Assembly: GCA_947384955.1 (NCBI GenBank)
Contig: CANDJC010000021.1
Location: 1 to 48,652, forward strand
Reading direction: 5' to 3'
Origin: an uncultured Eubacterium sp.
GTDB taxonomy: Bacteria > Bacillota > Clostridia > Lachnospirales > Lachnospiraceae
Length of the DNA: 48,652 nt
The notes under the pieces are model-generated. The model made no database searches and was not told where the DNA came from. It worked only from the letters and a program-made list of their open reading frames with translations. Positions 1 through 48,652 of the stretch are shown here, piece by piece. The first letter of the stretch is position 1; each line of letters begins with the position of its first letter. A program made the position numbers and the translations under genes.

Positions 1-286
1 CTGGCCTTCTGCCAGCAGCTACCGGTGCCGCTTCGGCTTCGCCGCCTGGTTTTTGAGCAGAATGCTAAGGGATTCTAAACATTCCTCCGATGTCCCAGGA
101 ATCCGGTGCATCTTCCCGTCACCCGGCTGGTTTTCATAAGTTTTACTTTTTATTTCTCTGATTACGGCAAAAATGCAAGGCATGGCAAACGCCGCGCCCC
201 GCATTTCTTTCTCGTTTTAATGTTTTATGAATCTTCTGTTCTGACTTTTTGGGTCACCTTTGCTTCTCATACAGATTATTGTTTTA
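1..286. other. Region beyond the 3' end of the fla/che run, no confident gene
   Basis: No gene is supported here. A 61-codon minus-strand frame (19-204) exists but has only a weak purine stretch before its ATG and no family I recognise. There is no GC-rich hairpin with a T-run just past the last fla/che gene, so no terminator is visible for that operon. Positions 1-15 form a small CTGGC/GCCAG hairpin. The stretch around 50-130 loosely resembles the right-hand end of the 280-bp repeat family found elsewhere in the window, but too weakly to call a copy. Confidence 0.4.
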
Positions 287-10596: not shown

Positions 10597-12645
10597 TTAT
10601 GCTGTCACCATCCCTACTGACTGTAATTCTACATTAGAATCAATTTCATTATAAGACACTACGATCAGGTCTTTAAAATACTCTTCGGTCATTTTCTTAA
10701 AGTACATGCGCACAATCGGTGATGTAACAATGATTGGATTCTTTCCGAGATTTTCCAGTTTGGCAATTTCTGTTTCCACAGACGCCATAATCAGTTTTGT
10801 ACGTTCTGGATCTATTGTTAAATAAGCACCCTGTTCTGTCTGTTTTACAGAAGACATGATTTCCTGTTCAATATTCGGGTCAAGCGTTACAACGCTGGTC
10901 GCTTCATTCGGCATAAAATAGCGGTTCGATATCGCCCTCTTTAATGCCTGCCTTGTGTATTCTGTCAGCACATCCGTATCCCTGGAGGTCGCCGCATGAT
11001 CCGCTAATGTCTCAAAAATCGTTAAAAGGTCGCGGATGGAGATGCCTTCCGCCAGCAGGTTCTGCAGAACTTTCTGGATTTCCCCAATGCCTAACAGCTT
11101 CGGTACAAGCTCGTCTACAAGAACCGGATTATTTTCTTTCACATTGTCAATCAGGTTCTGTACATCCTGTCTTGTAAGCAGCTCGGCAATATGACTGCGG
11201 ATAACCTCTGTCAGATGCGTCGCAATAATCGAAGGCGGGTCTACCACGGTATAGCCAAGGCTCTCTGCCCGCTCCCTCTGGCTTTCCGTAATCCAGATAG
11301 CCGGCAGATGAAAGGAAGGCTCAAAGGTCGGAATACCGGTAATCTCTTCTTCTACATAACCCGGATTCATGGCCATATAATGGTCAAACAAAATCTCCCC
11401 TTCTGTAATCTGTATTCCTTTTATCTTGATGATATACTGGTTTGGATTCAGCTGGATATTATCGCGCAGACGGATAATCGGCACAACCGTGCCAAGCTCT
11501 AAGGCAATCTGCCTTCGAATCATAACCACGCGGTCCAAAAGGTCGCCGCCCTGGTTCACATCCGCTAGCGGAATAATCCCGTAGCCGAATTCCAGCTCAA
11601 TCGGGTCTACCTGCAGCAGGGAAACTACATTTTCCGGTTTCCTGATTTCTTCCGCCTCTTCTTCTGCCTGAGTCGTTTCTTCCTCGATAGCTTCTACCGC
11701 CATGCTCTTATCCATCGCACGTCCGACAATCAGATACACGACGCCGAAAGCGATAAATAATCCGGTATTTAACGGTGTTGTAATTCCAAGAAAGGCAAGC
11801 GTCATGCCTACCAGATACAATACCTTCGGGATTCCAAATAGCTGAGAGACAAGCACATCGCTGAAATCTGCCTCTTTGGAAGCCTTTGTAACCAGAATAC
11901 CTGTTGCAAGAGATATCATCAGGGAAGGCATCTGGGATGCCAGGCCGTCACCAATCGTAAGGATGCCGTACTGCTGGAGTGCATCTAATGCAGGAAGGCC
12001 TTCCCGCATCATGCCCATAACCGTACCGCCAACCAGGTTAATACCGGTAATTAAAAGACCCGCAGCCGCATCTCCCTTTACATACTTGGTAGCACCGTCC
12101 ATGGAGCCGAAAAACGCGGATTCCATCTGAATCTTTTCACGGCGGATTCTTGCCTCGCGGTCATCAATCGCCCCTGTATTTAAATCCGCATCAATTGCCA
12201 TCTGCTTGCCGGGCATAGCATCCAGCGTAAAACGTGCCGTTACTTCAGATACACGCTCAGAACCTTTATTAATAACAACAAACTGGATAATAACCAGAAC
12301 TATAAATATAATCGCGCCGACAATAATATCATTGCCGCCCACAAATGCGCCGAACGTTGCAACGACATTACCCGGGTCCCCAGTTGTCAGAATCAGTCTG
12401 GTAGAAGATACGTTTAATGCAATTCTGAAAATCGTTGTAAACAGCAGCAGGGTTGGGAAAAAAGACATATCCAGAACTTCCTGCACGAACAGACAGTTAA
12501 ACAGTACCACCAGAGCCAGCGAAATATTTAACGCCAGCATGACATCCAGTAATTGATTCGGGATTGGTACAATAAAAAACACAACCGCTGCCAAAAGATA
12601 AAGCGCAACGCCCACATCTGCTTTCTTCATACCTGTAAATCCCAC
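10597..12645 (-). CDS. flhA: Flagellar type III export gate protein FlhA
   Basis: The protein has 682 residues. The N-terminal half holds about eight membrane segments and the conserved FHIPEP-family signature region (VSEVTARFTLDAMPGKQMAIDADL, split here: residues about 132-155). The C-terminal half is the cytoplasmic nonameric ring domain that docks export substrates and chaperones. I keep the GTG start at 12645 (GAGG nearby); ATG five codons later at 12630 is an alternative. A 74-base gap separates it from flhB. Confidence 0.97.
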   Translation of the reverse strand: MGFTGMKKADVGVALYLLAAVVFFIVPIPNQLLDVMLALNISLALVVLFNCLFVQEVLDMSFFPTLLLFTTIFRIALNVSSTRLILTTGDPGNVVATFGAFVGGNDIIVGAIIFIVLVIIQFVVINKGSERVSEVTARFTLDAMPGKQMAIDADLNTGAIDDREARIRREKIQMESAFFGSMDGATKYVKGDAAAGLLITGINLVGGTVMGMMREGLPALDALQQYGILTIGDGLASQMPSLMISLATGILVTKASKEADFSDVLVSQLFGIPKVLYLVGMTLAFLGITTPLNTGLFIAFGVVYLIVGRAMDKSMAVEAIEEETTQAEEEAEEIRKPENVVSLLQVDPIELEFGYGIIPLADVNQGGDLLDRVVMIRRQIALELGTVVPIIRLRDNIQLNPNQYIIKIKGIQITEGEILFDHYMAMNPGYVEEEITGIPTFEPSFHLPAIWITESQRERAESLGYTVVDPPSIIATHLTEVIRSHIAELLTRQDVQNLIDNVKENNPVLVDELVPKLLGIGEIQKVLQNLLAEGISIRDLLTIFETLADHAATSRDTDVLTEYTRQALKRAISNRYFMPNEATSVVTLDPNIEQEIMSSVKQTEQGAYLTIDPERTKLIMASVETEIAKLENLGKNPIIVTSPIVRMYFKKMTEEYFKDLIVVSYNEIDSNVELQSVGMVTA

Positions 12646-12719
12646 CTTTCCTCAGTTAATTTTCTATGCTGATAAACGCAGTAATCCGTTTTTATTTTCC
12701 TTATGTTTATGCAAAACTT

Positions 12720-13847
12720 TTACAGTCTGTTCTTCATACGGTATACCGCAGCCAGAATTTCCGCAACCGTCTGATACAGCTCCGGCGGAATTTCTTCTCC
12801 GATTTCTACATTCGCGTATAACATACGCGCCAGCGGTTTATTTTCTACAATTTCTACATGCGCTTCTTTTGCTTTTTCTTTAATCTGAAGCGCTAAATAA
12901 TCTGTTCCCTTTGCCAATACGACCGGAGCCTCTGCTTTTTCGGCATCATACTTTAAGGCTACTGCATAATGCGTCGGGTTTGTAATCACGACATCCGCAT
13001 TCGGCACGTCCTGCATCATGCGCCTTTGGGAAGCCTCCCTCATGCGCTGCCTCTGCCTGCCTTTAATCTGCGGGTCACCTTCTGTATTTTTATATTCGTC
13101 CTTGACCTCCTGTTTGGTCATTTTGAGGTCATCTTTAAATTTCCATTTCTGATAAATGTAGTCTAAAATGGCTATGACAAAATAAGCCATCGATATTTTC
13201 ATTCCTGTATTAATGACTACCGAGCCGGAAAGCATTACCGCCTGCATCAGTGACATATTATACAGTAACAGCAGATTTCTGGAATTGTCTTTAATCGAAG
13301 AATAGGCAACCCAGGAAATCAGTATGATTTTTGCAATAGATTTTAATAATTCTACTAAGGATTCCTTTGAAAAAAGCCGCTTGATTCCATTCATCGGATT
13401 AAATTTCTTGAAATTCGGCTTTAAAGGCTTGGTTGTAACCTTCCATTTTACCTGCAGAATATTTATCACAACCATGGCAAAAAAACCGACTGCAAAAAAC
13501 GGCAGTACCATAAGCAGAAGCTCTGTCATGGATTTCTGCATAATCTGTGCCGCAGCCCGCCCGGTAAGCCCGCTGCGGTTTGCCGATACAAACTCCGGAA
13601 TCCGGCTGTAAAAAGTATCAAACAGGCCAATCAGCCCTTCTCCGAGATAAGACATCAAAACCTGAAGCAGGACAAATAAAATTAAAAGCCCCACTGCATT
13701 ATCCAGTTCCCTGCTTTTCGCAACCTTGCCGTCATTTCTGGCATCGGTAAGCTTCTTTGAGGTAGGCTCCTCTGTTTTTTCCCCGCCTTCCCCGTCTTTT
13801 GCAAACCACTGCAGGTTAAGCGGCATCCGCAATTGTTCGTTATTCAC
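12720..13847 (-). CDS. flhB: Flagellar export switch protein FlhB
   Basis: The protein has 375 residues. Four membrane segments (about 40-225) are followed by the cytoplasmic domain with the self-cleaving motif NPTH (VVITNPTHYAVAL, about 284-296). Cleavage between Asn and Pro switches export from rod/hook to filament substrates, together with FliK. The GTG start at 13847 overlaps fliR by 8 bases; ATG at codon 8 (giving MPLNLQWFAKDG) is possible. The N-terminal GEKTEEPT motif is typical of the family. Confidence 0.96.
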   Translation of the reverse strand: MNNEQLRMPLNLQWFAKDGEGGEKTEEPTSKKLTDARNDGKVAKSRELDNAVGLLILFVLLQVLMSYLGEGLIGLFDTFYSRIPEFVSANRSGLTGRAAAQIMQKSMTELLLMVLPFFAVGFFAMVVINILQVKWKVTTKPLKPNFKKFNPMNGIKRLFSKESLVELLKSIAKIILISWVAYSSIKDNSRNLLLLYNMSLMQAVMLSGSVVINTGMKISMAYFVIAILDYIYQKWKFKDDLKMTKQEVKDEYKNTEGDPQIKGRQRQRMREASQRRMMQDVPNADVVITNPTHYAVALKYDAEKAEAPVVLAKGTDYLALQIKEKAKEAHVEIVENKPLARMLYANVEIGEEIPPELYQTVAEILAAVYRMKNRL

Positions 13848-14628
13848 CTGTATACATCCCTTTTATCATATAAACAACCAGCCGCTTCATTTCCTGTGCC
13901 ACAGAACTTGCAACGCCCCCGATTAAGGATATTGCCAGATAAAGTACAATCAGGCCGATTAATACTTTCATCTGCATGCCGACTGCAAACATATTCATCT
14001 GCGGGGACACCTTCGCCATGATTCCAAGCACACAGTTTACTACCATCGTGCAGGCAAATACCGGAAGCGTAATCCGAAACCCCAGAATAATCAGAGAAGA
14101 CATATAGCTGATAATCCCTTCCAGCAGATAATCAAACTGGAACACCTGCTGGTTAATCGGTATCAGCTGATAAGACTCGCATACCGCACGGATAACATAA
14201 TGATACATATTCGTAGCCAGTAAAACCAGCATCGTCAGATAATTGTACATGCTGCCCGTAATGCTTTCTGTCATCTGTGTCATCGGATTAAATTCCTGTG
14301 CCATAGAAAAGCCAATCTGCATATCAATCAGAGAACCCGCAAACAAAACAATAGAATTACAGATATTGGCTGAATAACCGATCAGCAAACCCGTAATTCC
14401 TTCCTTAAGCACAATCACTCCATATTCCATTATTCCTGTGTAAGCAAGGTTCTGATCCGGCAAAACGCCTGTCAGCATAATCGCAATACAGCCTGCCAGA
14501 CCAATTTTGGTTTTAGACGGAACACCTCTTGTACTAAAAAAAGGCGCTGCAAACACACATGCAGAAATCCGTACCAGTATCAGCAGGAAATATTCAAATG
14601 TCTGTAACGAGTATGTTGCACTGACCAT
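13840..14628 (-). CDS. fliR: Flagellar export gate protein FliR
   Basis: The protein has 262 residues and about six hydrophobic segments; it begins with a family-typical FEYFLLILVRISACVFAAPFF segment (split: residues about 11-30). FliR forms the export gate core with FliP and FliQ. The conserved GFSMAQEFNPMTQ region is visible at about 107-119. AGGA lies close before the ATG. It follows fliQ by 18 bases and overlaps flhB. Confidence 0.96.
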   Translation of the reverse strand: MVSATYSLQTFEYFLLILVRISACVFAAPFFSTRGVPSKTKIGLAGCIAIMLTGVLPDQNLAYTGIMEYGVIVLKEGITGLLIGYSANICNSIVLFAGSLIDMQIGFSMAQEFNPMTQMTESITGSMYNYLTMLVLLATNMYHYVIRAVCESYQLIPINQQVFQFDYLLEGIISYMSSLIILGFRITLPVFACTMVVNCVLGIMAKVSPQMNMFAVGMQMKVLIGLIVLYLAISLIGGVASSVAQEMKRLVVYMIKGMYTGE

Positions 14629-14646
14629 GATACATTCCTATCCTAA

Positions 14647-14916
14647 CTACACATACAAACTAAAATCAGACCACAGCTCTACCATAAATGTGGACATATT
14701 ATTCAGCATCCATGCCCCGGCTAACAGCATGACTGCAAATACAGCCAGAATTTTCGGCACAAATGTCAGCGTCTGCTCCTGAATCGAAGTCACCGTCTGG
14801 AAAATACTGATAAGAAGGCCGACAATCAGCGAAGTCAGCAGCAGCGGAGCCGCAGTCAGTATAATCGTGTATACAGCTTCTCTGGAAATATCCATAACCT
14901 GTCCATCTGTAATCAT
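14647..14916 (-). CDS. fliQ: Flagellar export gate protein FliQ
   Basis: The protein has 89 residues and two membrane helices (about 16-38 and 52-75), with the family pattern SIFQTVTSIQEQTLTFVPK between them. It is a FliPQR export gate subunit. GGAGGAGA is placed 6-9 bases before the ATG. It sits between fliP and fliR as in most flagellar operons. Confidence 0.97.
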   Translation of the reverse strand: MITDGQVMDISREAVYTIILTAAPLLLTSLIVGLLISIFQTVTSIQEQTLTFVPKILAVFAVMLLAGAWMLNNMSTFMVELWSDFSLYV

Positions 14917-14931
14917 CGTATCTTCTCCTCC

Positions 14932-15771
14932 TTATGCTTTATAAAGAAATGTCCTGACCAGCTCACGGATAACCAGATTCCAGCCGTCTGCCAGCACAAA
15001 CAGCAGAATTTTAAACGGCATCGATATCGTTGTAGGCGGAAGCATCATCATACCCATTGACATCAGCACCGAGGATACCACCATGTCAATCACAATAAAC
15101 GGTATATAAATCAGAAAGCCAATAATAAATGCCGTCCGAAGCTCGCTGATAATAAAAGACGGAACCAAAACTGTAAATGGAATTTCATCTTTTGTTTCGT
15201 AAGTCACACCGGCAATCTCACAAAACATATTTACGTCTTTTTCCTGTGTCTGATTATACATGAATTCACGAAACGGCTGTTCTGCACGTTCCAGTGCAGT
15301 TTCCATTGTAATCTCACCCGCGTCAAGCGGCCGGATTACCTGTTCATTCACCTGTGAAAATACCGGCGACATAATAAATACTGTCAGAAAAAGCGCCAGC
15401 CCGACCATTACCTGATTCGGAGGTGATGACTGTGTACCAAGTGCAGTCCTCACAAAATGAAGCACAATAATGATACGGGTAAAAGAGGTCAGCATAATCA
15501 TGATAGAAGGCGCTAACGAAAGGACTGTCAGCACAATCAGCATCCGAATCGGCGCAGATATACCGCCTTCTTCATTCGGCCAGCTGATCCATAATCCATC
15601 ATTATAATCTGCGGGCGGCTCGTCCGGCTCTCTTGCGGAATCAAAGTTATCAATATTATCCCTTGCGGACGCATACGTATGCCTCTGACAGCAGAATACC
15701 AGACAAATAGCCAGCGCCACTATGGCAAGCATAAATGACGCCATGCAATATATTTTCTTTCCTTTACTCAT
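14932..15771 (-). CDS. fliP: Flagellar export gate protein FliP
   Basis: The protein has 279 residues. An N-terminal signal-like hydrophobic segment (about 9-26) and an acidic spacer (about 35-65) precede the FliP core with MIMLTSFTRIIIVLHFVR (about 95-112), ALGTQSSPPNQV and LVPSFIISELRTAF. It forms the export channel pentamer with FliQ/FliR. The ribosome site is weak, suggesting coupling to fliO 14 bases upstream. Confidence 0.97.
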   Translation of the reverse strand: MSKGKKIYCMASFMLAIVALAICLVFCCQRHTYASARDNIDNFDSAREPDEPPADYNDGLWISWPNEEGGISAPIRMLIVLTVLSLAPSIMIMLTSFTRIIIVLHFVRTALGTQSSPPNQVMVGLALFLTVFIMSPVFSQVNEQVIRPLDAGEITMETALERAEQPFREFMYNQTQEKDVNMFCEIAGVTYETKDEIPFTVLVPSFIISELRTAFIIGFLIYIPFIVIDMVVSSVLMSMGMMMLPPTTISMPFKILLFVLADGWNLVIRELVRTFLYKA

Positions 15772-34857: not shown

Positions 34858-35634
34858 TCATTGATTTTTCTTTTTCATGGCCTCTAATTCCGAAAATACA
34901 ACGTCATTTGTCACTTTGATATATGTACCTTTCATTCCCGAAGAACGCGATTCAATGACCCCGGCGCTTTCAAATTTGCGCAGTGCGTTGACAATGACAG
35001 AGCGCGTGATTCCGACGCGGTCCGCTACTTTGCTCGCAACTAAAATGCCTTCCGTACCGTTTAACTCCTCGAAAATATGCATAATTGCTTCGAGTTCGGA
35101 AAAAGACAGTGTGCTGATTGCAGAACGGACAATCTGGATTTTTCTTGTTTCTTCCTCTGTTTCCTCATTTACGGAACGCATCATTTCAAGCCCTACAACT
35201 GTGGTGCCGTACTCGCATAATATAATGTCGTCGATGTCATACGGCTCATCCATGCGGTATACGAACAGCGTCCCAAGCCGCTCGCCTGCAATGTCAATCG
35301 GTGTTATAATCGCGGAATATTTCTTGATATCCTGTACAAAACCAAGCGTTTCTAAATTTACATTTTCTTTTGTAGACAGTATGCCAAGCAGCCGTTCGTT
35401 CAGCATGACATCAATAAGCTCCCCCACTTCGTCCACAATCAGTTCTGAAATCTCCGCAATCCCGCTGCAGCGGCTGGTTCCAAGTACCTTTCCCTTTTTA
35501 CTTATGACCAGGATGTTTGACTTTAGAATGTCAGTCATGACTTCACAGATATCGCTGAATACTACTTTCGACGAATTGTTGTTGTGGAGCAGTTTATTTA
35601 TCTTTCTTGTTTTATCTAGCAGTTGAACACTCAT
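34858..35634 (-). CDS. codY: GTP- and branched-chain amino acid-sensing repressor CodY
   Basis: The protein has 258 residues, the standard CodY length. The N-terminal GAF domain (about 1-155) binds isoleucine/valine in the family; the C-terminal winged helix has VASKVADRVGITRSVIVNAL (about 204-223) and RSSGMKGTYIKV. CodY represses nutrient-limitation genes, including motility genes in several Firmicutes. AGGAGG lies about 7 bases before the ATG. Its position between topA and flgB is a conserved arrangement. Confidence 0.98.
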   Translation of the reverse strand: MSVQLLDKTRKINKLLHNNNSSKVVFSDICEVMTDILKSNILVISKKGKVLGTSRCSGIAEISELIVDEVGELIDVMLNERLLGILSTKENVNLETLGFVQDIKKYSAIITPIDIAGERLGTLFVYRMDEPYDIDDIILCEYGTTVVGLEMMRSVNEETEEETRKIQIVRSAISTLSFSELEAIMHIFEELNGTEGILVASKVADRVGITRSVIVNALRKFESAGVIESRSSGMKGTYIKVTNDVVFSELEAMKKKNQ

Positions 35635-35687
35635 TGGTGCCTACCTCCTCCTTTTCTGCGGCTTTTTAAGCATTCATGGTGTATTTT

Positions 35688-35716
35688 ATGATAACACTTC
35701 TTTTCTGATAATTCAA
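35688..35716 (-). promoter_or_regulatory. Sigma-A promoter of codY
   Basis: TTGAAT (35711-35716) and TATCAT (35688-35693) on the minus strand are 17 bases apart, about 55 bases upstream of the codY start. Confidence 0.7.
35699..35713 (-). promoter_or_regulatory. Probable CodY box overlapping the codY promoter
   Basis: The minus-strand 15-mer AATTATCAGAAAAGA matches the CodY consensus AATTTTCWGAAAATT at 12 of 15 positions and overlaps the -35 element and spacer. This fits negative autoregulation (inference). Confidence 0.6.
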
Positions 35717-35820
35717 CCGATTTTGGGTAATTTCATGAATTGTTTGTTACCTATTTGTTACAAAAATGTTTAATGCTGGAAGAAGGGGGGATGAGGGATA
35801 GGGGGGGTGGAGGACGGACG

Positions 35821-36098
35821 CTGGAGGGAGAAACTTTTTCCTGCTGCTGTGCGGTTTACGAAAAGTAAGAAGTTCTAAGTTTTCTGCGGAAAGGCTGTGG
35901 CAGCGGACGGACCGGCGCCTGATGCCCTGGCGTTTTTGCTGGCTGAAGGTATTGGCGCTGGCAGGCGCCTTTTGGGGACTTGAAGGCTGTTTAAGGGGAT
36001 AGTCTGTGTGTCCCCAAATCCTGGGTGATGAGCAGAAAACTAAGAACTTCTAACTTTTCTCCAAATGCACAGCAGCAAGAAAAAGTTTCTCCCTCCAG
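35821..36098 (+). repeat. 280-bp structured repeat family, copy A
   Basis: Terminal arms 35821-35852 and 36067-36098 are inverted repeats (31 of 32 positions). Inside are a second inverted pair (35868-35887 with 36032-36051, 19 of 20), GGCGCCTG/CAGGCGCC (35914-35921 with 35962-35969) and TTTGGGGAC/GTCCCCAAA (35971-35979 with 36010-36018). The same four stems occur in copies B and C. There is no reading frame of substance. A run of 7 G (35801-35807) lies just to the left. It could be a MITE or a structured RNA. Confidence 0.85.
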
Positions 36099-36333
36099 CT
36101 GGTTTTTGGCTGGTCCGCATTGTATTGCTTTTCTAAAGCTTTGGTGCAGGTTTTGGGGGCTTTGTTCTGCCAGGATGTTTTTGTTTTATTAAATACAGAT
36201 TGGGAAAGGTTTCTCCCTCTGGCTCGTTTGGGCTTGCATGGCTCTGTTTTTCTAAAGTTGTGGTGTGGTATGGGATGTTGTTCCGCCAGGATGCTTTCTT
36301 TTTAGAGAACGGCAGAATAGGATTTTCTGCTTT
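36086..36333. repeat. Imperfect ~124-bp tandem duplication of copy A's right end and flank
   Basis: Starting with TTTCTCCCTC at 36086 and again at 36210, two units share landmarks such as TTTTCTAAAG and CCAGGATG in the same order, with many differences. The duplication therefore starts within the terminal arm of copy A. I see no gene here. Confidence 0.6.
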
Positions 36334-36357
36334 TTTCTCAGAGAACGGGTGCGTGAC

Positions 36358-36545
36358 AGGATTTTCTGTTTTTATTTCTCTGAAATTGTCCGGGCTGCTT
36401 CTTTTTTAGAAACCGGATTTCGAAATCTGATTTCTTGTTTTTGTTTCTGCAAGATTGTTTCGGGGTGTCTCTTTCTCAGAAGACAGGGTCGGGATAGAAT
36501 TTCTGTTCCTGTATCCTTGAAATTATCCGAGCTGCTTCTTTAATT
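36358..36545. repeat. Three degenerate ~67-72-bp direct repeats
   Basis: Units beginning near 36358, 36430 and 36497 share a pattern of TTTCTGTTTTT, a GAAATTGTCCG-like block and GCTGCTTCTTT. They are pyrimidine-rich on the plus strand. Short plus-strand frames across them have no ribosome site and are not called. Confidence 0.5.
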
Positions 36546-36555
36546 AAATGTAAAT

Positions 36556-36585
36556 GCCGCCATACAGTTTCGCCTGTATAGTGGC
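36556..36585. other. 12-bp hairpin in the codY-topA gap
   Basis: GCCGCCATACAG (36556-36567) pairs with CTGTATAGTGGC (36574-36585) with one mismatch and one G-T pair around a six-base loop. No T-run follows on either strand. Its role is unknown. Confidence 0.5.
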
Positions 36586-36613
36586 ACTTACGCTCATAAT
36601 AATTATTTTAGAT

Positions 36614-36820
36614 TCTGACTGCCCCAAAACTTATCAGACTGCTTCTTTTTCTTCTCTTCTTTCATTATTTCAATACTTATCGGAACATAATTCTTCATTA
36701 TATATATCTGATTTCCAGCAAATTAGATTCTCGATTTTTCATACGACAGTTTTCGAACAGTCTGTTCTTATTTTTCATATTTTTCTTCCAAGCATCAGCA
36801 GCCCTGTTAATATATAATAT
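36614..36820 (-). repeat. Second dispersed repeat family, degenerate copy at 36.6 kb
   Basis: The best-matching part (36614-36770) aligns with 43166-43326 in the same orientation: ACTGCCCC, GACTGCTT, CATTATTTC, ATAATTCTTCATTATA-like and CAGTTTTC..ACAGTCTG blocks follow in the same order. The ends are a weak inverted repeat. Toward 36820 a CACCAGTC block also matches. The short reading frame of the 43.2-kb copy is broken here by frameshifts and stops. Confidence 0.6.
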
Positions 36821-36864
36821 CAGCCAAAACGTCTCACCAGTCCGCCTAAATTAAGCCAATACCA

Positions 36865-37145
36865 GCCGGGCGGAGAAACTTTTTCCTGCTGCTGTGCATT
36901 CGGAGAAATGCTGGAAGTTCTTAGTTTTCTGCTCACTGCACAGGATTTGGGGACACACAGCCTTCCGTCTTATAAAACCCTGAAGTCCCCAAAAGGCGCC
37001 TGCCTGATGCCAAAACACAAAGCCAGCAAAAACGCCAGGGTATCAGGCGCCGGTCCGTCCGCTGCCACAGCCTTTCCGCAGAAAACTTAGAACTTCCTGC
37101 TTTTCTCCGACAGCACAGCAGCAGGAAAAAGTTTCTCCGCCCGGC
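36865..37145 (-). repeat. 280-bp structured repeat family, copy B (inverted relative to A)
   Basis: Terminal arms 36865-36897 and 37113-37145 are a perfect 33-bp inverted repeat. The inner arms (36911-36932 with 37078-37100) and the GGCGCC and GGGGAC stems match copy A read on the other strand. It lies 37 bases past the topA stop, in the sense direction of topA readthrough. Confidence 0.85.
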
Positions 37146-37150
37146 GTCCT

Positions 37151-37162
37151 CCCCCCCCCCCC
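37151..37162. repeat. Run of 12 C (12 G on the minus strand)
   Basis: A homopolymer tract of 12 bases lies between repeat copy B and the topA stop codon. Such tracts vary in length by slippage. It is outside coding sequence, so an effect on frame is not expected. Confidence 0.9.
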
Positions 37163-37181
37163 TTACCAGCACGCTGCCATT

Positions 37182-39278
37182 TCAAGCCCCCTCCTGCTTC
37201 TTCTTCTCAAACATATACCCGCACTGCTCATCCGCGCACACAATTTTATTCCCTTTTTCTACCATAAACCCGCCGCACTTCGGACATTTATCCGCTGTCG
37301 GCTTCTGCCATGACATAAAATCGCACTCATCCGGCCCAGCCTCGCATCCAAAAAACCGTCTTCCCTTTTTTGTTTTTCGCACCACAATATCTTTCCCGCA
37401 TTTCGGACAGGCGATGCCGATTTTTTCCAGATACGGCTTTGTACTGCGGCAGTCCGGGAATCCGGGGCAGGCAAGGAATTTCCCGTGAGGGCCGTATTTA
37501 ATGACCATATTGCGGCCGCATTCTTCGCAGATAACATCTGTGACCTCATCTGCAATCTTCACTTTTTCCAGCGTTTTTTCCGCATTCAAAACGGCTTCTT
37601 CCAAATCCGGGTAAAAGTTGCTGACGATAACTTTCCAGCTGACGTTTCCCTCCTCCACTTTATCCAGCAGCATTTCCATATTTGCAGTGAATTCTTCATC
37701 TACAATCGTTGTGAAAGCTTCTTTCATGATGGTATTGACTGCTTCGCCGAGTTCTGTCAGAAAAAGGTTTTTATTTTCTTTTAATACATAACGGCGTGCA
37801 AGCAGGGTCGTGATAGTAGGCGCATAGGTACTCGGGCGTCCGATTCCGTGTTCTTCGAGTGCTTTTACAAGCGCGGCCTCTGTGTAATGTGCCGGAGGCT
37901 GTGTAAAATGCTGGGTGCTGGTTACATCTGCCAGTGTCAGTTTGGAAGATTTATCTATGGATTTAAGCAAAACATTGTTGTCACCTTTTTCATCTTCATC
38001 GCTCATGTATACAGACATAAAACCGTCAAAAGCTATTCTGGATGCGGATACTGTCAGACGGTATTCTCCCGCGCCTATTTTTACACTGGTAGTTTCGTAT
38101 TTTGCCGCGCTCATGCGGCTTGCTGTAAAACGCTTCCAGATAAGCTGATAGAGCCTGAACTGGTCTCTGGAAAGTGATTCTTTTACTTCTGCAGGCGTTC
38201 GTTCAATATCTGTCGGACGGATGGCTTCATGGGCATCCTGTATCTTCCCGGATTTTTTCTTTTCTTCCTGAGCTTCTGCAATATAGTTTTCCCCATAAGC
38301 TCTTCCGATATATTCTCTTGCCTGGGCATCTGCTTCTTCTGAGATACGCACGGAATCTGTTCTCAGATAAGTAATCAGGCCGATGACACCAGAACCTTTG
38401 ATTTCTACTCCTTCATAAAGCTGCTGTGCAAGCCGCATCGTCTTAAGTGTAGAAAAATTCAGCACCTTGGAGGCTTCCTGCTGCAGCGTGCTTGTCGTAA
38501 ACGGAAACGGAGCTTTTTTCGTCCGCTCGCTCTTTTTTACATCTTCCACCTGATACTGTGCCTTAAGCAGCTCCTGCCTGATTTTTTCTGCCTGTTCGCC
38601 GTTTTCAATTTTCATGCGGCCCGAGGCAGTTCCATAAAATTTTGCGTCGAGCTTTTTTCGCTCCCCTGCAACGGACAGGGATGCGTCAATCGTCCAGTAT
38701 TCCTCCGGGATAAATTCGCTGATTTCACTTTCACGGTCCGCAATAATGCGCAGGGCAACCGACTGCACACGTCCTGCACTTAAGCCGCGTTTTACTTTTT
38801 CCCAGAGCACCGGGCTTATTTTATAGCCGACCATGCGGTCTAAAATCCGCCTTGCCTGCTGGGCGTTTACAAGGTCCATATCAATCTCACGCGGCTGTTT
38901 TAAGGAAGCTTTGACTGCATTTTTAGTAATTTCATTAAAGCTGATGCGGTACACTTCTTTCTCGTCTTTATTTTCGTCCAGTTTCAGCGCTTTGGACAGG
39001 TGCCAGGAAATTGCCTCTCCTTCCCGGTCAGGGTCAGTTGCCAGATATATGCGCTCTGCTTTTTTCACTTCTTTGCGCAGTTTTGCCAGTATCTCGCCTT
39101 TCCCGCGGATTGTAATGTACTTTGGTTCAAAATCATGTTCAATATCAATCCCCATCTGACTCTTTGGCAAGTCTCTGACATGTCCATTCGAGGCAGTGAC
39201 TTCATAATTTTTCCCCAGAAATTTTTTGATCGTCTTTACCTTTGCCGGTGATTCCACGATTACCAGATATTTTGCCAT
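37182..39278 (-). CDS. topA: DNA topoisomerase I
   Basis: The protein has 698 residues. It has the Toprim domain (VIVESPAKVKTIKKFLG at the start, DPDREGEAISWHL at about 85-97), the active-site Tyr in LITYLRTDS (about 300-308), and three C-terminal zinc ribbons with paired CxxC motifs (CEECGRN..CPGFPDC, CPKCGKD..CEAGPDEC, CPKCGGF..CADEQC). It relaxes negative supercoils. GAGGAG precedes ATG. It forms a run with comM and dprA, which lie 18 and more bases upstream. Confidence 0.98.
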   Translation of the reverse strand: MAKYLVIVESPAKVKTIKKFLGKNYEVTASNGHVRDLPKSQMGIDIEHDFEPKYITIRGKGEILAKLRKEVKKAERIYLATDPDREGEAISWHLSKALKLDENKDEKEVYRISFNEITKNAVKASLKQPREIDMDLVNAQQARRILDRMVGYKISPVLWEKVKRGLSAGRVQSVALRIIADRESEISEFIPEEYWTIDASLSVAGERKKLDAKFYGTASGRMKIENGEQAEKIRQELLKAQYQVEDVKKSERTKKAPFPFTTSTLQQEASKVLNFSTLKTMRLAQQLYEGVEIKGSGVIGLITYLRTDSVRISEEADAQAREYIGRAYGENYIAEAQEEKKKSGKIQDAHEAIRPTDIERTPAEVKESLSRDQFRLYQLIWKRFTASRMSAAKYETTSVKIGAGEYRLTVSASRIAFDGFMSVYMSDEDEKGDNNVLLKSIDKSSKLTLADVTSTQHFTQPPAHYTEAALVKALEEHGIGRPSTYAPTITTLLARRYVLKENKNLFLTELGEAVNTIMKEAFTTIVDEEFTANMEMLLDKVEEGNVSWKVIVSNFYPDLEEAVLNAEKTLEKVKIADEVTDVICEECGRNMVIKYGPHGKFLACPGFPDCRSTKPYLEKIGIACPKCGKDIVVRKTKKGRRFFGCEAGPDECDFMSWQKPTADKCPKCGGFMVEKGNKIVCADEQCGYMFEKKKQEGA

Positions 39279-39296
39279 AATTACTCCTCAAGCTGC

Positions 39297-40460
39297 TTAC
39301 TTTGTCATTATCTTATAGCAGTTTTTAAATACTTCTTCAATATAGTGCTTTTGCAAAAGGGCAGACAGCGCCTGGCAGACCGTCTGTACATCCAGTCCGG
39401 TCCGTTCCAGTATTTCTTCGATGTCCAATGGCAAAAGACCAAGACAACCATACACCAACGACTCATCTTTTTCAAGAGAAAATTTATGTAAATTGCCAGA
39501 ATTTTGATTTGCCTCCTCGAAATCATGCGTAAATTCGGGCTTTTTTTGTGAAATATTTTTTTTGCGGCCGGCATGTACAAACAGCTCGTTCAGACAGTCC
39601 TCCACAGATAAAATGACACCTGCCCCTTGTGCAATCAGCTGATTACAGCCGCTGCTTAACGCATCGGTAATCCGGCCCGGCAGCGCGCAGACCTCCTTTC
39701 CCTGCTCTAAAGCAAAATCAGCAGTAATTAAAGAGCCGCTTTTTTCTTTTGCTTCTATTATAAGAACTACATCCGACAAAGCGCTTATCATCCGGTTGCG
39801 CTGCGGAAAATGAAAGCCTTCCGGCTTTGTGCCCGGCGGATATTCAGACATTACTCCTCCATGATTTACAATTTCATAATACAGCTGTCTGTGAAAACTC
39901 GGATAGCACACATCCACGCCGCAGCCAAAGACCGCATAAGTATCGCCCCCGCTGTCTAATGCCCCTCTGTGTCCCGCCGCATCAATCCCCCTGGCCATTC
40001 CGCTTATCACAGACACATCATGCTTAGCCAGTTCTCTTGCAATCTCCCTGGCAATCGTTCTCCCATATTCCGAACACATCCTGGCACCTACAATGGCAGC
40101 CCTGAATTTATGCGTTTCCGGAAGGCTTCCGCGGTAAAAAAGGCCGTAAGGAGCATCGGCCAGCTGGCGAATCTGGGGCGGATAATGTGCCTGTTCCAGG
40201 CTGACAAAAGAAATGCCCGCCTGCTTTAAGCGCTGCCACTGCCCGTCAGTATCCCATGTTTGTTTAGATTCTATGATATGCTCAATATCCTTATGCATAA
40301 GTCCCGGAATTTTTTCCAGCTCTTTTCTGCTAAGACTGTATACTTCCTTCGCATCCGCACACTCGCGAAAGAGACATTTCTGCATCCGGTATGACCAGTC
40401 CCTGATACAGCAAAGCCAGTATGCATATTTTTCCATTTCATATTCTTTTTTCTGGCACAT
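39297..40460 (-). CDS. dprA: DNA-processing protein DprA (Smf)
   Basis: The protein has 387 residues. An N-terminal helical/SAM-like part, the Rossmann-like DprA domain (about 85-290: SGMARGIDAAGHRGAL, AVFGCGVDVCYP, MSEYPPGTKPEGFHFPQRNR split, SGSLITADFALEQG) and a C-terminal winged helix (about 320-385) are present. DprA loads RecA on incoming single-stranded DNA during transformation. GGTGA lies 7 bases before ATG. Gap to comM is 10 bases. Confidence 0.97.
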   Translation of the reverse strand: MCQKKEYEMEKYAYWLCCIRDWSYRMQKCLFRECADAKEVYSLSRKELEKIPGLMHKDIEHIIESKQTWDTDGQWQRLKQAGISFVSLEQAHYPPQIRQLADAPYGLFYRGSLPETHKFRAAIVGARMCSEYGRTIAREIARELAKHDVSVISGMARGIDAAGHRGALDSGGDTYAVFGCGVDVCYPSFHRQLYYEIVNHGGVMSEYPPGTKPEGFHFPQRNRMISALSDVVLIIEAKEKSGSLITADFALEQGKEVCALPGRITDALSSGCNQLIAQGAGVILSVEDCLNELFVHAGRKKNISQKKPEFTHDFEEANQNSGNLHKFSLEKDESLVYGCLGLLPLDIEEILERTGLDVQTVCQALSALLQKHYIEEVFKNCYKIMTK

Positions 40461-40470
40461 AATCTATCTG

Positions 40471-42030
40471 TCACCTTTCCCAGAATTTCCGGTCCAGGCT
40501 GCGGTAACAAAGCGCCTCGGATAAATGGCTCACTCTGACAGACTTGCTGTGCGACAAATCTGCGGCCGTTCTGGCAACACGCAGGATTTTGTGATACGAA
40601 CGCGCGGTCAGATGAAATTTCTGGTACATTTCTTTTAAGTATTTTTCTTCTTTCGACGTAATCTGACAGATTTCCTTCAGGCAGTCCGCCGGAATCTGAC
40701 TGTTAAAATGGATACCGGTTCCCTCAAAGCGTTCTTTCTGCAGTTCCCAGGCTTCACAGACCCTGGCACGGATTTGCGCAGAGCTTTCATTTCCCGCTTT
40801 ATCCGTAAGCTCCGCATAGGTAAGCTGTGATGTTTTTACACAGATGTCAATACGGTCTAACAGCGGCTGGCTGATGCGGCCAAGATAACGGTCAATTGCA
40901 TTCTGTGTACAGCGGCAGCGCTGCATATCCGGGTATGCCCCGCAGGGACACGGATTTGTGGCCGCAGCCAGCATAAAATCTGACGGATAGCTGCAGTTTC
41001 CATGTACCCTGGATATATGAATCTGTTTTTCCTCCATAGGCTGGCGCAGCAGTTCCAGTGTAGACTTTTGAAATTCAGCCAGCTCGTCCAAAAACAGCAC
41101 GCCTTTATGAGCCAGAGATATCTCTCCCGGTTTCGGCACTTTTCCGCCTCCGGCAAGCCCCTGAGGCGTAATCGTATGATGCGGGCTTCGAAACGGGCGC
41201 TTTGTTATCAAATGGCTGTTGTGCAAAAGCATTCCGCTGATACTGTAGATTTTGGCTAACTCCAGCTGTTCTTCTTCACACATCGGCGGAAGTATGGTGG
41301 GAATGCGCTGTGCAATCATCGTCTTTCCCGCACCGGGCGGGCCGACCATCAAAAGATTGTGCATCCCCGCTGCCGCTACTTCGCTGGCTCTGCGTACCAG
41401 CCGCTGTCCGTTTATCTGTGAAAAATCCAGTTCCTGTCCGTTACTGTCAGAAGCATTTTGTATATTTTTAGAGCTTAGAAACATTTCATTCGTATCCATG
41501 ACAAATGCTTTCTGCGATGACGGATGAGTGAAATAATCTATTACATCTTTGATTTCTTTCACGGCAACTGTCTGAATGTTTTTAATCATGCACGCTTCCA
41601 TGCGGTTTTCATAAGGCACCATGCAGTGCGTAAAACCATGTTCCCTGGCCTGTGCCGCAATCGGAAGTATGCCTTCCACAGGCTGTACTTTGCCGTTTAA
41701 TCCGATTTCTCCTACAATCAGTATAGAGGTTAGATTTTCGGGCGGTATAATGCGAAATGCTGCAAGAATGGCTGCGGCAACCGGCAGGTCAAAGGCTGAA
41801 CCGGTTTTTTTGATATTGGCCGGGGACAGATTTACTGTAATCCGCTTTGCAGGCAGACGATATCCGCTGTTGCGCAGAGCGGTCCTGACACGTTCCCTGG
41901 CTTCTTTTACTTCCGATGCAAGAAAGCCTACCATATCAAACATCGGCAGGCCGTCGCTGACATCTGCTTCTACCTGTACGGGAATGCTGCTGATACCGCG
42001 GATGATGGCTGTTGATACAATACTATACAA
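40471..42030 (-). CDS. comM: YifB/ComM-family Mg-chelatase-like AAA ATPase
   Basis: The protein has 519 residues. It has an N-terminal ChlI-type domain, an AAA+ core with Walker A MVGPPGAGKTMIAQRIP (about 226-242) and Walker B-like KGVLFLDELAEF, and a C-terminal Mg-chelatase-like domain. In other bacteria ComM is a helicase promoting branch migration in transformation. The start is TTG at 42030, with GGAGG 6 bases upstream and family-like N-terminus after it (YSIVSTAIIRGI); the open frame upstream lacks such support. Confidence 0.95.
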   Translation of the reverse strand: MYSIVSTAIIRGISSIPVQVEADVSDGLPMFDMVGFLASEVKEARERVRTALRNSGYRLPAKRITVNLSPANIKKTGSAFDLPVAAAILAAFRIIPPENLTSILIVGEIGLNGKVQPVEGILPIAAQAREHGFTHCMVPYENRMEACMIKNIQTVAVKEIKDVIDYFTHPSSQKAFVMDTNEMFLSSKNIQNASDSNGQELDFSQINGQRLVRRASEVAAAGMHNLLMVGPPGAGKTMIAQRIPTILPPMCEEEQLELAKIYSISGMLLHNSHLITKRPFRSPHHTITPQGLAGGGKVPKPGEISLAHKGVLFLDELAEFQKSTLELLRQPMEEKQIHISRVHGNCSYPSDFMLAAATNPCPCGAYPDMQRCRCTQNAIDRYLGRISQPLLDRIDICVKTSQLTYAELTDKAGNESSAQIRARVCEAWELQKERFEGTGIHFNSQIPADCLKEICQITSKEEKYLKEMYQKFHLTARSYHKILRVARTAADLSHSKSVRVSHLSEALCYRSLDRKFWER

Positions 42031-42097
42031 GAAATTCCTCCTTTTTGTTTTTGGGGGTTCTGGATGTGTCTGCTGGATTAAGAGGATTTCAAAAGGA

Positions 42098-42116
42098 GCC
42101 ACGCTTGGGGTGTGGC
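42098..42116. terminator. Hairpin upstream of comM, terminator-like on the plus strand
   Basis: GCCACGC and GTGTGGC pair (one G-T) around a short loop; TTTTT follows on the plus strand. On the minus strand only TCCTTTTG follows. It lies within the comM leader, so it might act as a weak attenuator there. Confidence 0.35.
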
Positions 42117-42145
42117 AGAATTTTTAGATACAAAAAGATGAAGTT

Positions 42146-42154
42146 ATTATAGCA
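42146..42154 (-). promoter_or_regulatory. Extended -10 promoter candidate for comM-dprA-topA
   Basis: TGCTATAAT on the minus strand gives a perfect -10 with the TG extension, about 115 bases upstream of the comM start. I see no good -35. Confidence 0.55.
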
Positions 42155-42213
42155 TAAAAATGAGGGGTTGGGAAGGGGGTTTTGTAAATTTATTTTTTTT
42201 TGAAGGGAGGGAC

Positions 42214-42493
42214 GCCGGACGGAGAAATGTTTTCCTTTGGATGTTCCGCTTCCAAAAAGCAGGAAGTTCTAAGTTTTCTGCGGTTAAGTTCTGGCAGCGG
42301 ACGGACCGGCGCCTGATACCCTGGCGTTTTCGTATGCTGAAGGTATTGGCTCTGGCAGGCGCCTTTTGGGGACTTTAGCGGTTTTTCAGGCGGCAGACTG
42401 TGTGTCCCCAAATCCTGGGTAATGAGCAGAAAACTAAGAACTTCCAGCTTTTTTCCAGAGTCACATCCAAAGGAAAATATTTCTCCGTCCGGC
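42214..42493 (+). repeat. 280-bp structured repeat family, copy C
   Basis: Terminal arms 42214-42244 and 42463-42493 are inverted repeats (30 of 31). Inner arms 42259-42281 and 42426-42448 pair at 21 of 23. The GGCGCCTG/CAGGCGCC and TTTGGGGAC/GTCCCCAAA stems are also present. The arm sequence differs clearly from copies A and B (a CTTTGGATGT block replaces CTGCTGCTGTGC) on both sides, keeping the pairing. Confidence 0.85.
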
Positions 42494-42532
42494 TGGTTTT
42501 GGCTAAATTTACGTTTCGGACTGTGTTGTACG

Positions 42533-43162
42533 TCAGGCTTTTCTCTTAAGGATGTCTGATATAAAGGAGCTGTCACTGTTATTTTGTAAATTTGGGTCAA
42601 AGTCAGCCGGGAGGGAAGAAATTTTCCCGCACGGCGTCCCGAAAGATACACTGTCCTGAATCAGATGTCTCGTATTATATTTCCACAAATCCTCGCTTGC
42701 CGGACATTTCCTGTAAAATTTCTCTGCCAGCTTCCTTTCTTTGGCCAGAAACAGCACAAGAGAACTGTCCTGCGGCACAATTTCCAGTTCTGCCAGCGGA
42801 TGCTGCAGGAAAACCGGATTTTTCCAAAAGAGGTCCGAATCTGCACAGGGAAGCGGGCAGCTTAGTGCCTGTTCTTTGGAAATAGTTTTGGGAAAACCCG
42901 AAAAAGCACCCCAGATAAACTGCAGGTTCTTGTATTTTTGAATCATTTCTGTTAATTCATCACCGCTCATCCAGCAGTATCTGCGGGACTCGGTTTCATG
43001 CAGTATCTGGCTGGCGCAGTCTAATTCTTTCACCGGCTGATTGCATTCCCAGTCTGTAATCAGCCAGCTATAGTTTGTCTGCACATTGCCTGCTGACTGA
43101 AAAACAAAGTTTAAATCTGTATACCATTTCTGCCCTTTTTGTAAAATTAGCCCATATGCCAT
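42533..43162 (-). CDS. Orphan protein of unknown function
   Basis: The protein has 209 residues, no signal peptide or membrane segment, and many aromatic residues (for example WLITDWECN at about 33-41, YCWMSGDEL at about 62-70 and LQFIWGAFSGFPK at about 80-92). I do not recognise the family. GAGGGGG lies 8 bases before the ATG. It stands alone: its 3' end is 40 bases from repeat copy C and it is preceded by a ~400-base leader with a strong promoter. The last ~30 residues are Ser/Asp/Asn-rich. Confidence 0.7.
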   Translation of the reverse strand: MAYGLILQKGQKWYTDLNFVFQSAGNVQTNYSWLITDWECNQPVKELDCASQILHETESRRYCWMSGDELTEMIQKYKNLQFIWGAFSGFPKTISKEQALSCPLPCADSDLFWKNPVFLQHPLAELEIVPQDSSLVLFLAKERKLAEKFYRKCPASEDLWKYNTRHLIQDSVSFGTPCGKISSLPADFDPNLQNNSDSSFISDILKRKA

Positions 43163-48395: not shown

Positions 48396-48490
48396 TTAAG
48401 TTCTGGCATTTGTATATCTTTTTCTTTAAATTCATTGAATTTTCTGGAATATTCTGTGCGGAGTGAATAAATTTCGGATGTAAGCTGGTT

Positions 48491-48610
48491 TGCGGATGTT
48501 TCTTTCGGGATGTCAGGCGGAGGGATGTTTTGCGGATATTTCTTTCGGTACGCCAGGCGGAGGGATGTTTTGCGGATGTTTCTTTCGGTACGCCAGGCGG
48601 AGAAATGTTT
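48491..48610 (+). repeat. Three 40-bp tandem repeats
   Basis: Units start at 48491, 48531 and 48571 with an exact 40-base period and few differences. Each contains GGCGGAGGGATGTTT, which resembles the terminal arm of the 280-bp repeat family; the third unit runs straight into copy D. There are no unique spacers. Confidence 0.9.
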
Positions 48611-48652
48611 TCCTTCGGATGTTCCGCTTCCAAAAAGCAGGAAGTTCTAAGT
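48594..48652 (+). repeat. 280-bp structured repeat family, copy D, cut by the window edge
   Basis: The left arm and the start of the second stem (AGGAAGTTCTAAGT) are nearly identical to copy C. The remainder lies beyond the window. Confidence 0.8.

Follow-up and report, generated by a model that had tools for sequence, protein, structure and literature searches.

Inverted palindromic units in a Lachnospiraceae genome: a loop-less, multiplied branch of TwoAYGGAY (RF01731) that resembles mobile DNA

Introduction

The stretch of DNA analyzed here (the window, 48,652 nucleotides) is one contig, CANDJC010000021.1, of the genome of an uncultured Eubacterium sp. of the Lachnospiraceae (GCA_947384955.1), which comprises 5.06 Mb in 271 contigs. 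Between topA and codY, just upstream of codY, it carries two palindromic units of a repeat family, A and B, in opposite orientation; a third unit, C, lies farther along, and a fourth, D, is cut by the contig end (Table 1). The initial annotation had placed copies A (35821-36098), B (36865-37145), C (42214-42493) and a partial D, all of which were present, whereas the inverted pairing, a partial unit at 1-127 and a probable tip-only mate of C were absent from its list. It knew of no named family that fits. Below we relate the units to the Rfam family RF01731 (TwoAYGGAY), which was described in 2010 and whose function is, in the portions of the literature available, still listed as unknown.

Table 1. 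Units, model matches and neighboring features in the window
Feature	Position	Strand	Remarks
Partial unit, 3' half, second shorter subfamily	1..127	+	contig start cuts unit; match 37-96; end placed by eye
codY	34858..35634	-	downstream neighbor of A/B pair; flagellar genes after codY
Unit A	35816..36101	+	GGACG foot outer, CTG foot inner; RF01731-sense strand -
R2 match at unit A	35854-36065	-	109.1 bits
A-B spacer	36102..36862		one 92-aa open reading frame (36265-36543, +), no Pfam match over cut-off
Unit B, inverted mate of A	36863..37149	-	GGACG foot outermost; RF01731-sense strand +
R2 match at unit B	36899-37111	+	99.3 bits
topA	37182..39278	-	upstream neighbor of A/B pair
Unit C	42210..42495	+	R2 match 42248-42459, strand -, 107.9 bits
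Probable mate of C	42604..42639	-	36 bp; only the two outer tips with their feet (CAG ... CGTCC) are left, interior lost; by eye
40-bp tandem repeat, 3.1 copies	48489..48611	+	runs into outer tip of D
Unit D	48593..48652	+	5' arm only, 60-base stub ended by contig end

Structure and covariation of the unit

The full unit is a nested palindrome of about 286 bp set between a GGACG foot on the outside and a CTG foot on the inside. Read on the unit strand, GGACG is followed by an outer arm of 31 pairs, an internal loop, an inner arm of 25 pairs, hairpin 1, hairpin 2 and the returning arms, and the terminal CTG is followed by a conserved stretch resembling TTTTGGC. The two hairpins are GC-rich (8+2 and 9 pairs). 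The inner arm contains conserved A.A mismatches, which were found in 42/45 and 45/45 units.

Further copies were abundant. A BLAST search with A, in which 40 of 247 candidate places in the genome were scored, gave at least 41 matches that covered 238 or more of its 278 bases, and an iterated profile applied to 775 kb of the source genome detected 45 full units along with many partial ones. We counted covariation in 44 of these 45, excluding L033:3026-3333 because of an insert. Stem cells were paired in 99.2% of cases, 33 of 79 stem pairs showed changes on both sides, and 257 cells had changed on both sides versus 8 on one side. Shuffling the 3' partners gave 65.4 ± 7.7 cells changed on both sides, and sliding the partners by 1-3 columns gave 1-23; relatedness inflates such counts, and the slid-partner controls carry the same relatedness. 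Because both controls fall far below 257, the covariation is well beyond chance, which upholds the earlier claim that nested stems covary between copies. In addition, the arms differ between units in blocks, and 6 units carry a one-base indel that is matched in the opposite arm.

Relationship to RF01731

A first BLAST search over relatives found matches in 7 of 61 genomes, the source genome included, all from one genus; congeneric units had the core in common and different arms. As the initial annotation had proposed, a covariance model was then run on related genomes. This model, R1, built from 31 units, gave at least 150 matches in the source genome; counting that genome, it matched 11 of 13 genomes in the genus and 14 of 250 in the family, the latter being the source genome and 13 other genera. 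The copies sought in the genome and its relatives were thus found by both BLAST and the covariance model. When 14 loci from other genera and the congeneric locus L089 were compared with Rfam, all 15 matched RF01731 at 88-142 bits (threshold 43). Among 20 loci from congeners or the source genome, 11 matched above the threshold, two weakly, and seven, including the one that holds A and B (L001), did not match. Overall, 39 of the 250 family genomes, each standing for one genus, had RF01731 (38 other genera), and 37 of the 39 were above the threshold. The source genome itself has 19 RF01731 matches at 105 scored places, 17 of them over 43 bits; the best (76.1 bits, C27:17859-18071) is a sibling 81% identical to A.

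In the window, no RF01731 match was found at the gathering threshold over the whole length, and A and B gave none at E <= 1 (35500-37400; L001). The relationship emerged through R2, a model made only from other genomes (27 RF01731-positive units): it matched A, B and C at 99.3-109.1 bits (E <= 1.3e-21), and window-type units could be aligned continuously with RF01731-positive ones. The Rfam comparison therefore yielded no direct match of 43 bits or more, while homology to RF01731 members was established via R2, and the initial annotation's remark on named families is superseded. An Rfam search with the window alone also returned weak matches to eukaryotic microRNAs and snoRNAs, which are probably hairpin artefacts.

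The window units and RF01731 have in common a homologous core, two hairpins, arms and a T.T mismatch (A.A on the unit strand, which is the reverse of the Rfam strand). They differ in that the window copies have neither AYGGAY loop and carry ~45 extra core bases, in that the source genome holds about 150 or more copies with units in head-to-head pairs, and in that the arms extend past the Rfam model. On the Rfam strand, A, B and C have no GGA in the loop stretches, and GGA was present in only 4/44 (hairpin 2) and 3/44 (hairpin 1) units of the source genome, compared with 63/76 (hairpin 2) and 64/76 (hairpin 1) units of other genera. The loss of these loops explains why the window copies are missed by Rfam. 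The window units are a divergent, loop-less and multiplied branch of TwoAYGGAY in which both AYGGAY loops have been replaced by longer stretches; this branch is new, and the Rfam family is already known.

The idea that loop loss goes with a rise in copy number has exceptions among congeners. Counts of RF01731 and R1 matches, of which the former is not the same as a count of intact loops, were 19 and at least 150 in the source genome (G000), 0 and at least 150 in both G003 and G005, 40 and 111 in G009, 7 and 92 in G010, 20 and 69 in G008, 0 and 41 in G002, 16 and 35 in G006, 9 and 17 in G001, 0 and 16 in G007, 0 and 2 in G004, and 0 and 0 in G011 and G012. Nothing was found by searching exact patterns in genome-contig and viral-contig collections or by distant BLAST of plasmids and phages using A as query, and the literature searched on Lachnospiraceae miniature inverted-repeat transposable elements (MITEs), nested palindromes, Clostridia CGTC repeats and Lachnospiraceae CsrA small RNAs held no such account.

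Head-to-head pairing

Units A (+) and B (-) form a single head-to-head element, and this arrangement is the rule in the source genome. Among neighboring full units within 3 kb, 14 of 15 pairs stood in the order + then -, with the GGACG feet outermost and 90-1059 bp between them; the fifteenth was + +, 2522 bp apart, and had as its second member a unit that is itself part of one of the 14. A full or partial mate in the + then - order was found for 38 of the 45 full units, and most of the other seven lie near the end of a contig or stretch. Mates were more similar to each other than non-mates (mean identity 0.89 vs 0.82; highest identity 0.97 and 0.93, respectively). In 13 of the 14 pairs the spacer has no open reading frame of 90 amino acids, the spacer in the window having one of 92, and most spacers have little sequence in common. 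A repeat of about 135 bp recurs, in either orientation, in 5 of the 14 spacers (L033, L035, L042, L046, L047). In congeners, eight loci had + then - neighbors and one (L024) had two in the same direction. Of the 76 units from other genera, 15 had exact feet; letter-permuted controls gave a mean of 0.67 and a maximum of 15, and the self-complementary GCAG/CTG control gave 14.

Evolution of the arms

A transcript under selection for folding tolerates G-U pairs, so G-U should outnumber A-C if the stems are maintained by selection on RNA. In the 45 units of the source genome (unit strand) we counted 20 G-U, 23 A-C, 21 other and 3343 Watson-Crick cells; in the outer arms of 23 congeneric units (unit strand) 17 G-U, 15 A-C and 679 Watson-Crick; and in 76 units from other genera (arm stems, Rfam strand) 27 G-U, 28 A-C and 1650 Watson-Crick. 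Seven tRNAs taken as a control had 9 G-U and 0 A-C, as counted with a tRNA finder that itself favors G-U. Since G-U is not above A-C, the covariation here is no sign of RNA selection. The initial annotation had left two options for the matched arms, a functional structured RNA or the arms of a mobile element: the lack of G-U excess speaks against the first, and arms matched by a process at the DNA level are the better option. Covariation assessed without a count of G-U can make a DNA palindrome pass for a conserved RNA. In other genera, 65 of 76 units had T.T at the mismatch beside the inner arm (A.A on the unit strand); its maintenance implies that not every mismatch is corrected, and the site is probably under selection.

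Association with csrA

The two TwoAYGGAY loops were recognized in 2014 as fitting the CsrA site, and the accessible part of that work (PMC4333381) calls for tests. In our family sample, csrA was present in 38 of the 39 RF01731-positive genomes against a background of 128/250 (Fisher 9.7e-12; 126 of the 128 over the Pfam cut-off), and the exception, G203, has a single RF01731 match near a contig start. In a sample of the order, in which RF01731 was found in 34 of 392 genomes (32 over threshold), all 34 had csrA against a background of 225/392 (Fisher 2.9e-9); at the genus level the count was 20/20 (p 5e-5). This association supports the published proposal that CsrA may bind the TwoAYGGAY loops. 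The source genome has 3 csrA-like genes. At L051, a csrA-like gene (12461-12760) stands directly before an 862-aa open reading frame (12855-15443) that reads as a flagellin by eye.

Occupied and empty sites

The initial annotation had also suggested comparing corresponding intergenic sites for empty targets, and this comparison showed elements to be present or absent at the topA-codY site between species that are too distant to show exact insertion ends. The gap is 1550 bp in the source genome; in L089 it measures 1243 bp and holds an RF01731 pair, and the start of L092 falls within a unit that lies 245 bp ahead of codY. Gaps without the element measured 228 (L090), 270 (L091), 260 (L094) and 165 bp (L095), and L096-L100 likewise have none. 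An all-against-all blastp of 306 open reading frames at 20 other-genus loci found no group of recurrent neighbors in more than 8 genomes; the twelve widest groups were, by eye, regulators, transporters and housekeeping genes.

Interpretation

With a probability of about 0.58, we read the units as dispersed, non-coding, REPIN-like palindromes, a branch of TwoAYGGAY whose ancestors had CsrA-type loops, which resembles mobile DNA more than it does an RNA gene. In the source genome, two palindromes of about 280 bp in inverted order, 90-1059 bp apart, form one element, which would be moved in trans by a putative enzyme. In single-stranded DNA, during replication or transfer, each palindrome might fold back, and one arm could be re-copied from the other, as we infer from the matched block changes, the matched indels and the lack of G-U excess. 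On the Rfam strand, the ancestral form has two GGA hairpin loops predicted to bind CsrA, and the window copies, their loops lost, are probably passengers.

Several observations weigh against this interpretation. Equal numbers of G-U and A-C would also be expected if both strands must fold, and a noisy count over the wider outer arms of 57 units gave 90 G-U and 78 A-C on the unit strand, hence 78 and 90 on the Rfam strand, next to 213 further mismatches. Outside the genus, only 20 of 77 units (60 loci) stood in - then + pairs within 1500 bp on the Rfam strand, which is the same geometry as in the source genome; other neighbors were tandem (two cases, L211 and L191) or + then - (one, L191). Pairing is thus in the minority there, and the unit rather than the pair may be ancestral. 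Among the 57 single units of other genera, a weak match was seen in the inner flank of 6 of the 51 with enough flank and on the outer side of 4 of 57, and most of these single units bear no trace of a mate. No target-site duplication was found in the 14 pairs with ends taken at GGACG (longest shared word 6.2 on average vs 6.05 in mismatched controls), so that the check suggested by the initial annotation came out negative. No mobiliser was found among Y1 genes and recurrent neighbors, no search for DDE families having been made. The top identities between copies reveal no fresh copy, and contigs do break inside units. L088 has a topA-codY gap of 698 bp with no model match. As for csrA, 2/39 and 2/34 positive genomes lie below the Rfam threshold, the two samples have 11 positive genomes in common (61 of 62 with csrA when combined, background 51-57%), the genomes are related, and csrA may simply accompany flagella.

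An RNA gene or cis-regulatory RNA, as RF01731 is typed in Rfam (Cis-reg), in which the need for the transcript to fold would make the stems covary, is in our view unlikely. The hairpins and loops are conserved in other genera, as the GGA counts given above show; the hairpins there lean to G-U (12 G-U vs 7 A-C, small numbers), and most units outside the genus stand alone. However, the arms have no G-U excess, the source genome combines at least 150 matches with loop loss, and the 14 pairs, all intergenic, lie between genes in every orientation (5 --, 4 -+, 3 ++, 2 +-, by a simple open reading frame caller). The available part of the 2010 table, moreover, marks the motif 'y' for RNA but 'n' for cis-regulatory.

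A sponge, in which the dispersed units would together titrate CsrA as a CsrB-like RNA array and be kept by selection, was put forward in the part of PMC4333381 available, and we regard it as improbable. It draws on the 61 of 62 positive genomes with csrA and on the hairpin ACAUGGAUGU, which closely resembles the published E. coli SELEX site RUACARGGAUGU. Ancestral units resemble CsrB/CsrC-type CsrA-binding RNAs in their GGA hairpin loops and in the nearly constant presence of csrA, but the window subfamily differs from these RNAs in having no such loops and far more copies, and a sponge leaves the DNA-level arms unexplained.

The resemblance to REPs and REPINs lies in the architecture. According to the available part of PMC3733652, CGTC-tagged REPs carry at one foot a tag that stays unpaired (here GGACG/CGTCC) and a short tail at the other, form head-to-head dimers with the tags outside, and have no dedicated transposase. 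They are listed there from five phyla, Firmicutes not among them; they measure 20-40 bp with stems of 8-9 bp and a tail that is mostly CCA, whereas the present units have ~230-286 bp and CTG. Inverted pairs with tagged feet thus exist in the source genome, but neither the 20-40 bp size nor a Y1/RAYT companion was found. A REPIN mobilised by a Y1/RAYT transposase would account for paired, dispersed palindromes with tagged feet, a pattern described in that paper, yet it is very improbable: 20 of 39 positive genomes had no PF01797 match, the 19/39 that did compare with a background of 144/250 (p = 0.29; Y1 served as a control of frequency similar to csrA), and the one intact and one broken Y1 gene of the source genome have no unit in the ~6 kb covered around them. 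A classical MITE that has long terminal inverted repeats and depends on a DDE transposase for its movement would explain dispersed, intergenic elements with inverted 286-bp ends and is the least probable reading, as the 14 pairs have no end duplication (no search for DDE families was made), the ends are themselves palindromes and most spacers have little common sequence.

Returning to REPIN-like mobile DNA, a bolder version can be offered only as speculation that we ourselves think doubtful. TwoAYGGAY as a whole might be, instead of a family of RNA genes, a new class of giant, tag-footed and often paired mobile palindromes of the Lachnospiraceae, whose spread is checked by a grip of CsrA on the GGA loops of their transcripts, and branches that shed the loops would escape and multiply. 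The present results make TwoAYGGAY testable as long palindromes, paired where abundant, with arms evolving at the DNA level and csrA in the carrier genomes.

Genomic setting and minor observations

In the window, 5069-35634 forms a codY-headed flagellar and chemotaxis run with flgC, fliE, fliF, fliG, a fliI-like gene, fliK, flgD, fliP, flhB, flhA, a flhF-like gene and cheA. Around the 14 pairs, gene ends that face the element were a median of about 50 bp away (12 cases) and gene starts that face it about 190 bp (16 cases), again by a simple open reading frame caller. Scans of the A/B region found 4 promoters and 4 terminators, with 2.3 and 2.4 expected. A 209-aa open reading frame (42533-43162, -) has no Pfam match; its last ~35 codons cross the tips left of the mate of C, which means that element DNA may form the end of this gene.

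Both ends of the window (1-127 and 48593-48652) lie inside units, as do the ends of several other contigs of the genome, which indicates that the repeats break the assembly. At D the outer tip is tandemly repeated outward, and the same was seen by eye in the flanks of units at L049, L044 and L045 and at L089. Finally, the outward strand beyond both pair ends is strongly G-rich and C-poor (45 units), with C at 4-10% and G up to 50% at 16-75 bases; this bias is mirrored on the two sides of the pairs and fades over ~120 bases.

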